Of a stretch of DNA of 64,000 nt, positions 35,713 to 38,153 are shown one piece after another. Source of the stretch: Bacteroidales bacterium (GTDB lineage: Bacteria > Bacteroidota > Bacteroidia > Bacteroidales > TTA-H9); the NCBI GenBank assembly GCA_028689615.1, contig JAQVCV010000013.1:1-64000 (forward strand), written 5' to 3'. Both the position numbers and the translations under genes were made by a program. Position 1 is the first letter of the stretch, and each line of letters opens with the position of its first letter. Under the pieces are notes generated by a model that ran no database searches, was not told where the DNA came from, and saw nothing but the letters and a program-made list of their open reading frames with translations.

Positions 35713-36021
35713 ATGGTCGCCAAATTAAAGCCTAATGAAGTTGTTATCAAAGCTGGTGATTCTGTTCATCAGGCAGATAGTTTCTCAATTAAGGGAAAAC
35801 TGATTCTTACTAACCAGCGGTTGTATTTTAAAAGACACGAGAGCAGCAGTGATGAGTACTTACTCGAAGTGTTGCCTGCTGAAATTCAGGATGTTGTATG
35901 TTACAAATCTGGATGGTTTTCTGACAACGGTTTGCAAATCCAAACCAAAGATGGCCGTAAGCTGAGTTTCGTCATGAAGAACCGTTCCGACTGGGGCGAG
36001 ATGATAGCCCGAATGTGTTGA
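35713..36021 (+). CDS. PH/GRAM-like small protein
   Basis: SFSIKGKLILTNQRLYFKRHESS...QIQTKDGRKLSFVMKNRSDWGEMI. Confidence 0.65.
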   Translation: MVAKLKPNEVVIKAGDSVHQADSFSIKGKLILTNQRLYFKRHESSSDEYLLEVLPAEIQDVVCYKSGWFSDNGLQIQTKDGRKLSFVMKNRSDWGEMIARMC

Positions 36022-36091
36022 TTCAGAATATCTCATCATATTTTGTTTGTTGGTTTTTGGTTAATATCATTTGGTTACTTGTAAATGATTT

Positions 36092-36126
36092 AGAAGAAGG
36101 GTCTCCGGGAGGATCCCCTTCTTCTC
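36092..36126 (+). terminator. Hairpin terminator-like structure downstream of the PH-like gene
   Basis: AGAAGAAGGG..CCCTTCTTCT arms followed by ccattttt. Confidence 0.65.
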
Positions 36127-36614
36127 CATTTTTGCACTTTTGCTTCTGATGTAGTTGTGAAGTATCCATTGAAAAGGATAATCCTGGATTGTAAGTTGTC
36201 TGTTAGTTTTTAACTAATTCTGAATTGTCGATACCATTCATTAGCAGTGCATTGAAGTTGAAAGTCGCCATTTTTTGCAATTCAGCAAACCTTTTATAAG
36301 TTACTTTTCTCGAAATCCTGGTTATGTTTTAGTTGATTTCCCAACCTTTTTTTTCACAGTTGATTGGGTTGCTCCCGAGCAGTGGCTCAATTTATTAACC
36401 TCGCATCATTTGATGTTATTCAAAAAAGGTTGCCGTTAATTTGTTTGTAAGGTGTTTAATTTCATGTATATGCATATTGAACCACCCTTCTTGATGTTTT
36501 TTTTGCAAAAAATTTATCTTTTCCAGAAAAATTATTCTAATCAAAATTTATAATAATTCATGATGATTATATGTATTATCCGAAAACACAAATTCTATCC
36601 ACTTTGAATTTTGG

Positions 36615-36644
36615 CGTTAAGAGGTCGTTAAGTTATTGTTAAAC
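36615..36644 (+). promoter_or_regulatory. Candidate activator-binding iterons with 11-bp period
   Basis: CGTTAAG at 36615, CGTTAAG at 36626, TGTTAAA at 36637. Confidence 0.5.
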
Positions 36645-36768
36645 AGTAGAGTTTCGTTTTCGTGGCAGAGTGAATATGTTGCTTGAAATGATTGCGGATA
36701 GCATAGCACCCTTGAGAGTAAAGTGGATTAAAATACTATATAATTGTAAATCAGATTGTGGTATGTTT

Positions 36769-36784
36769 TGGCACGATGCTTGCA
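36769..36784 (+). promoter_or_regulatory. Sigma-54 (-24/-12) promoter TGGCACGATGCTTGCA
   Basis: GG (36770-36771), N10, GC (36782-36783); near-exact match to YTGGCACG-N4-TTGCW, in intergenic DNA. Confidence 0.75.
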
Positions 36785-36794
36785 CTTATATAAT

Positions 36795-36932
36795 CGCTGT
36801 TGCAGGTAAAACCTGGTAATACCAAACTAAACTCTCTTTACCTACTTTTCATTAGTTGTTTTTGTTGTTTTAGAAGTTACTTTTTAGTACTTGAGAAGCC
36901 GGTTCGCAGTAGATGCGCACCGGTTTTCTTTT
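36795..36932 (+). ncRNA. Candidate sigma-54-dependent small RNA (about 138 nt)
   Basis: Bounded by the sigma-54 promoter and an intrinsic terminator; no ATG-initiated ORF between; internal alternative pairings (CAGGT-aaa-ACCTG; AGGTAAA/TTTACCT). Confidence 0.5.
36896..36932 (+). terminator. Rho-independent terminator
   Basis: AAGCCGGTTCGCA-gtaga-TGCGCACCGGTTT with one internal mismatch, followed by TCTTTT on the + strand. Confidence 0.8.
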
Positions 36933-36986
36933 GTGCAAATTGGTAATCGTGTTTTGTTTAGTTTTTGTTGGTTGATTTATTGAAAT

Positions 36987-38153
36987 CTAATATGTTATGA
37001 ATTTTTTAATCGTTTTAAATATATTGTCAAAGGCCATGTCTACCTCCGATTGTATCGATGCGTCTTTTGAGATTGGAAACGGATTTTCGTGACAATAAGC
37101 AAATTTAAAGTCTGATTGAACTACTTCCACCATGGTTCCCCTGAAAAGTTTTTTTGTAGCACCCGAAGGAATCACCCGATCTTGTTTAAGCGTGATTACT
37201 TTAATCATCTTCCGGTAAGCGTTAAAGGCCTCTTTAATTAATCTGGAATTGCGCGTCGGAGCTGTCATGGCATCAAATGCCTGTCCAATGGTCTCCTTTT
37301 TAAGAAAATTACCAAGAGGTGATTGTGCTTTCATCTGACGTTGTGTTTCATACATGTAAAAATTGTAAATGGAATGAAATGCCTCTTTATTCATAATGTA
37401 CTTCGATATTCCGTTCATGGCTGAAAAAGGGGCGCCTCCGGCCAAAACAAATGTTTTCAAGGGTGGTGTGGAGGTTAGGAAATTGTTAAGCATCATGATT
37501 TGTGAAAGAAATGCTCCGATAGAGTAGGCCACTACTTCAACCTGGCGGAAGCCCTGCAGTTGGGCAATCTTGTCATTTTGAATTTGGTTGATCAACTGAT
37601 AAATATCGTTCACGCTTTGAAGACCTGATGTTAAAAATCGCAGTGGGTTGCTTGTTAATCGTTTGCTAATCATGTAATTCACGAAAGTAGTAGAACTGGA
37701 AGTTGTTCCAGTTTGCTCATGATTCATGATGTCGGAGACGGTTCGTGCATTGCTCCAAAATGCCGGAGATCGGTTCATGTGAAACGAGATCGGGAACAAT
37801 ATGACGGGTAGTTGCAACTCTTCTGCCAGCCAGGCTCCCCAACTCCAGTACTTATTCCACGATCGTTCGTTGAGGCCGTGCAGAAGCAGCAAGGCCTTAC
37901 TTCCTGAATGATAGTTAACAGGACTTATTATTGGATATTTAAATTGATAGTTTTCGGAAACCAGGTTGTCGTTGTTCTCTGGATGCAAATGGGTAGTTTT
38001 TAGATCGATAGTTTGTTGTTGCGATTTGTAATCGATCCATTGAACCATAAGGGTGGATGTGTTGGTAGAAACCAACCGGTTGGTACCGGTTGTTGTTTTG
38101 GCAAAGAGTTCATTAAGCTCGTGGTAGGTCATCGGTGTCAATATTTCTGACAA
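36987..38153 (-). CDS. Alpha/beta-hydrolase-like protein
   Basis: ALLLLHGLNERSWNKYWSWGAWLAEEL, VEVVAYSIGAFLSQI (nucleophile-elbow-like), KQDRVIPSGAT. Confidence 0.75.
   Translation of the reverse strand: MSEILTPMTYHELNELFAKTTTGTNRLVSTNTSTLMVQWIDYKSQQQTIDLKTTHLHPENNDNLVSENYQFKYPIISPVNYHSGSKALLLLHGLNERSWNKYWSWGAWLAEELQLPVILFPISFHMNRSPAFWSNARTVSDIMNHEQTGTTSSSTTFVNYMISKRLTSNPLRFLTSGLQSVNDIYQLINQIQNDKIAQLQGFRQVEVVAYSIGAFLSQIMMLNNFLTSTPPLKTFVLAGGAPFSAMNGISKYIMNKEAFHSIYNFYMYETQRQMKAQSPLGNFLKKETIGQAFDAMTAPTRNSRLIKEAFNAYRKMIKVITLKQDRVIPSGATKKLFRGTMVEVVQSDFKFAYCHENPFPISKDASIQSEVDMAFDNIFKTIKKFITY

Follow-up and report, generated by a model that had tools for sequence, protein, structure and literature searches.

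A multi-copy small RNA gene family with sigma-54-type promoters in uncultured Bacteroidales bacteria

We analysed a stretch of 64,000 nucleotides (nt) of DNA from an uncultured Bacteroidales bacterium of family TTA-H9 (positions 1 to 64,000 of contig JAQVCV010000013.1, assembly GCA_028689615.1; hereafter the window). An intergenic gap in the window opens where a plus-strand gene ends at 36021 and closes with a minus-strand gene at 36987-38153, which is convergent as the original prediction had stated, and it had been proposed to hold an orphan sigma-54 promoter driving a small RNA (sRNA). Comparison with related genomes identifies in this gap a real, previously uncatalogued sRNA gene of uncultured Bacteroidales bacteria, a member of a family whose transcription apparently relies on the alternative sigma factor RpoN (Table 1).

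Table 1. Features of the sRNA gene and its upstream region in the window
Feature	Coordinates	Strand	Remarks
TATCCG, surviving left half of TATCCG-N4-CGGATA	36577..36582	+	probable distal activator site
Three 11-bp-spaced heptamers CGTTAAG, CGTTAAG, TGTTAAA	36615..36643	+	starts 36615, 36626, 36637
CGGATA half-site	36695..36700	+	probable proximal activator site
-24/-12 sigma-54 promoter element TTGGCACGATGCTTGCA	36768..36784	+	GG 36770-36771, GC 36782-36783
Small RNA gene	36796..36932	+	predicted +1 36795/36796, ~137 nt; conservation onset coincides with predicted +1
5' stem-loop	36799..36820	+	96.7% of cells paired in 10 sequences, mostly invariant
Invariant 14-nt core TAAACTCTCTTTAC	36828..36841	+	largely single-stranded; presumed site for pairing or protein binding
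Intrinsic terminator	36899..36932	+	stem 36899-36923, then T-rich tract TTTTCTTTT

Results

A family of conserved, terminator-ended RNAs

A nucleotide search of 61 genomes recovered segment 36741-36935 a second time in the window's own genome (G000, contig C105). Of the eight other genomes of the family, seven have it as well; the eighth has a completeness of 76% and likewise contains neither of the two flanking marker genes that were searched for. The family comprises 11 close copies and one divergent copy, and in the window's genus the RNA is, to judge from these genomes, kept in two copies per genome. Since the promoter is part of a multi-copy family, it is not the orphan single case that had been proposed. 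A covariance model built from ten copies matched the window at 36796-36930 with 141 bits; run over 395 genomes of the order, it gave no convincing match outside the window's family. Weak matches in G081 and G262 were discarded, as the similarity was terminator-like only. When the exact core pattern was sought in the GTDB species collection, metagenome-assembled genomes (MAGs) labelled Bacteroidales or Bacteroidetes of the same lineage were matched, while hits in Bernardetia, Vicingaceae and Flavobacteriales ALC-1 had no promoter or RNA context and were set aside as chance; nothing matched in viral contigs. One homologous contig (L059, QKAV01000099.1) comes from SZUA-381, a MAG labelled Crocinitomicaceae, and is syntenic with and closely similar to the window-type locus (locus A, below) of GWE2_42_24; it probably belongs to the window's lineage and was misbinned or mislabelled.

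Identity among the copies is low just upstream of the RNA start. The strongly conserved block begins with GCTGTTGCAGG, 27-29 nt past the T of the TGGCA in the promoter, the distance at which initiation by sigma-54 polymerase is expected, and this spacing holds in all 11 copies. At the other end of the RNA, the predicted stem and U-tract are present, and 4 of the 10 pairs in the terminator stem show two-sided, compensatory changes. Over the whole model structure 95.3% of cells were paired, against 91.5% in shuffles and at most 45.5% when the structure was slid along the sequence. The predicted 5' stem is nearly invariant and thus carries little covariation information. Between the two lies a pyrimidine-rich 14-nt core (UAAACUCUCUUUAC) with a mean unpaired probability of 0.46-0.82; no copy departs from it, not even the divergent third one of G006, and a U-rich tract follows it. 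The copies in G005 and G008 are only ~96 nt long and lack this U-rich middle, which leaves the 5' stem, the core and the terminator as the common parts. As had been predicted, the RNA contains no ATG-started open reading frame, and compensatory changes in the terminator stem together with broken reading frames (see below) mark it, on comparative grounds, as non-coding and as a separate RNA that ends at a terminator of its own.

A sigma-54-type promoter kept in all main copies

The proposed -24/-12 element is present, with perfect GG-N10-GC spacing, and is rare: TTGGCAYRNNNNTTGC matches once in the window against 0.06 expected, and the single perfect match to TTGGCAYNNNNNTTGC (TTGGCAYN5TTGC) in the 4.5-Mb genome is the window promoter itself. 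Upstream of the RNA, TGGYA-N8/9-TTG was found in 11 of 11 main copies, and the adjoining columns vary. The genome also encodes the machinery that such a promoter needs and that the original prediction had called for, namely one full-length RpoN, in which the domains for activator interaction, core binding and DNA binding are all present, and 10 strong Sigma54_activat proteins (AAA+ enhancer-binding proteins), several of them with receiver and Fis-type DNA-binding domains. Altogether, comparison of the copies demonstrates, at the level of sequence, the promoter element, the RNA boundaries, the terminator structure, the non-coding nature of the RNA and its paralogy.

Candidate activator sites upstream of the promoter

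Most homologous promoters carry an inverted repeat, TATCCG-N4-CGGATA, at about -190 to -220 from the RNA start. It is complete in the promoters of G001 and SZUA-381; the window promoter keeps half-sites only, with the left half of the palindrome at the distal site. Closer to the start, 5 of the 11 promoters have CGGATA at -100/-101 and most others have CGG-like variants ~72 base pairs (bp) upstream of TGGCA, giving a half-site consensus of CGGAWA near -100. In a de novo scan of all 6-N4-6 palindromes, TATCCG came out on top with a score of 86 (60 shuffles: mean 78.05, standard deviation 1.0, maximum 81), a significance that is overstated because the sequences are related, though the sequence around the palindrome has diverged. 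Across different genomic settings the palindrome keeps a near-constant distance to the promoter. TATCCG/CGGATA, conserved in position, are candidate activator sites.

The enhancer had originally been placed elsewhere, at the three heptamers of Table 1. These are present and unlikely to arise by chance (of 500 shuffles, 0 had three equally spaced GTTAA and 6 had some 5-mer in three copies at a constant interval of 9-12 bp), but footprinting found no counterpart at the same place in any relative, which rules them out as a conserved enhancer and makes them specific to the window. Of the elements that close relatives had been expected to share, the -24/-12 element and the terminator are thus kept and the iterons are not.

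A putative trans-acting RNA under proposed enhancer control

The gap very probably holds a stand-alone sRNA gene, started by sigma-54 and activated from an enhancer, which is one of two copies in the genome and likely acts in trans. In the scheme that we infer, from transcription itself and the choice of activator to the enhancer function of the palindrome, the mode of action and the targets, RNA polymerase containing RpoN would start the RNA from the -24/-12 element once activated by an AAA+ enhancer-binding protein of this genome, which would sit upstream and most likely on TATCCG/CGGATA. The ~137-nt transcript would end at its own intrinsic terminator and present a 5' hairpin together with an exposed, pyrimidine-rich invariant core. 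This core would most likely act in trans, either by forming short duplexes with the regions where translation starts or by attaching to an RNA-binding protein.

Several results weigh against this scheme. The palindrome is incomplete in both RNA copies of the window's genome, its enrichment over a reversed control is uneven and the same palindrome is found elsewhere, including in metK terminators, for which reason its enhancer role is put forward here as a likely function and not as a finding. In G006, the divergent third copy has no good -24/-12 element. Finally, a search for complements of the core (exact, with one mismatch and with G-U pairs) in 9 genomes yielded, apart from the RNA genes, no more matches than the control, and predicted duplex energies over 121 start regions were no better than those of shuffled cores; the absence of any excess of long complementarity leaves short-seed pairing or protein binding as possible means of action.

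The palindrome may conceivably be unrelated to sigma-54, for instance terminator-like or the site of another regulator, with activation passing through another site such as the 11-bp iterons of the window. We consider this a serious contender, if the less likely one: similar palindromes occur in metK terminators and also upstream of a polysaccharide cluster, where no -24/-12 element is evident, and the window has lost the right half yet possesses strong iterons. Its near-constant distance to the -24/-12 element in different settings, despite diverged surroundings, argues instead for a link to the promoter.

Somewhat more doubtful is a real RNA that would serve mainly as a protein-binding decoy in the style of CrcZ or GlmY, sequestering for example an RRM protein instead of pairing with messenger RNA. 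The genome does encode an RRM_1 protein, a U-rich tract follows the core and core complementarity is not in excess in the genomes, all of which would suit a decoy. Nevertheless, the 96-nt copies of G005 and G008 do without the U-rich tract, and a single 14-nt core is unlike a repeated protein-binding motif.

Genomic settings and reading frames

The homologues are found in at least three unrelated genomic settings. Locus A (the window, G001 and SZUA-381) lies between a GRAM-like 102-amino-acid gene and a convergent DUF6051 gene, and locus B lies 3' of pyrB-pyrI in G000, G003, G004, G005, G006 and G007; the copy in G008, where the contig is broken, has the same downstream neighbours as locus B. 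In G001 no RNA follows pyrI and a second copy located elsewhere constitutes the third setting. By this comparison promoter, RNA and terminator have moved as one module, and locus A looks derived because G004 has the 102-amino-acid gene without the RNA. In the window, a strong GC-rich hairpin (36092-36126) after the GRAM-like gene is probably that gene's terminator.

These settings bear on the idea that the RNA is a leader or attenuator of the downstream gene and not a free RNA. In G003, G004, G005 and G008 the RNA is indeed followed by a gene on the same strand, which encodes a secreted S8 subtilase in G004 and has homologues of it in the other three genomes, but the next gene is convergent in five copies (the two of G000 and those of G001a, SZUA-381 and G006), downstream genes vary among loci and the terminator is strong and conserved, and a leader, highly improbable on this evidence, was rejected. 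Least credible of all is a small protein started from the TTG at 36800, the alternative that the original prediction had itself named: the frame is open for 48 codons in the window and open also in SZUA-381 and G004, yet in 8 of 11 copies, all those remaining, a stop comes after 6-19 codons, indels are not in triplets and there is no ATG start, which refutes it unless one lineage alone uses the frame.

The divergent third copy of G006 (L020, G006:C217; core at 1501-1514) has a different 5' hairpin and the same core, and just upstream of it TACATTTG resembles a housekeeping -7 element.

Relation to known small RNAs

Small RNAs controlled by sigma-54 are known mainly from Proteobacteria, where they include the sigma-54-linked GlmY/GlmZ and CrcZ/CrcY and, in Vibrio quorum sensing, the Qrr RNAs, which are controlled by LuxO and sigma-54 and target luxR/hapR. 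The window RNA differs from GlmY/GlmZ and CrcZ/CrcY in sequence, structure and phylum. With the Qrr RNAs it shares an arrangement: the RNAs are small, end in a terminator, exist as separate copies that each have a -24/-12 promoter, and have an invariant core in common; upstream activator sites belong to the Qrr arrangement and have candidate counterparts here. Judged by this anatomy, it would be an sRNA of the Qrr type that is activated by a signal and acts in trans. It differs in having two copies and a 14-nt core, and no Rfam match stood above threshold; Rfam gave no family at gathering score anywhere in the window, and a permissive scan of 36000-37000 (E<=10) returned no match to Qrr or to FopS/GibS. 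The Qrr RNAs are described as multi-copy with an invariant core of 32 nt (PMC4211561).

Within Bacteroidales, the nearest parallel in design is a family of Bacteroides, FopS/GibS, described as RbpB-associated, paralogous, multi-copy sRNAs that expose a seed and end in a 3' terminator (PMC11697453). The window family is likewise paralogous and multi-copy, with an exposed core and a 3' terminator; the 14 copies of FopS in Bacteroides are described as having promoters of sigma-ABfr, the housekeeping sigma factor (PMC11697453), whereas those of the window family are of the sigma-54 type, and no Rfam match links the two. In the literature covered, which was partial, so that absence is not proven, we found no sigma-54-driven sRNA described in Bacteroidetes.

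We read the window RNA as a member of a small regulatory RNA family that depends on sigma-54, resembles Qrr in its regulation and is unrelated to it in sequence. The evidence is evenly poised on a larger proposal, according to which Bacteroidota possess a multi-copy sRNA circuit driven by sigma-54, with a dedicated enhancer-binding protein for TATCCG-N4-CGGATA, that arrived independently at the design of Vibrio Qrr. With a conserved paralogous family of RpoN-promoted RNAs in Bacteroidales, the Qrr-type design would have a second origin. The family offers a defined promoter, RNA and candidate enhancer for testing, and its 11 close copies and one divergent copy make a new Rfam-type family for annotation.

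The core and the palindrome at metK and elsewhere

The best predicted duplex of the core lies inside the metK coding sequence (L103, about 244-343; -24.2 kcal/mol), and the metK genes of six relatives mostly have this site at about the same position; it is a weak lead because the site lies in a conserved coding motif.

As a marker of further sigma-54 promoters the palindrome was rejected, the other sites being metK terminators or lacking a -24/-12 element. Just 3' of metK, TATCCG-N4-CGGATA occurs in six genomes, as the metK terminator hairpin in four and beyond a separate terminator in two (L129 4990-5024, L130 4982-5016, L132 5003-5037, L133 587-621, L131 5046-5061 and L136 4979-4994). A further conserved copy is present in G001 and G002 (L135 4997-5012 and L134 153-168); the one in G001 lies upstream of a polysaccharide gene cluster with a winged-helix regulator and a NusG-like gene, and no -24/-12 element was seen there.
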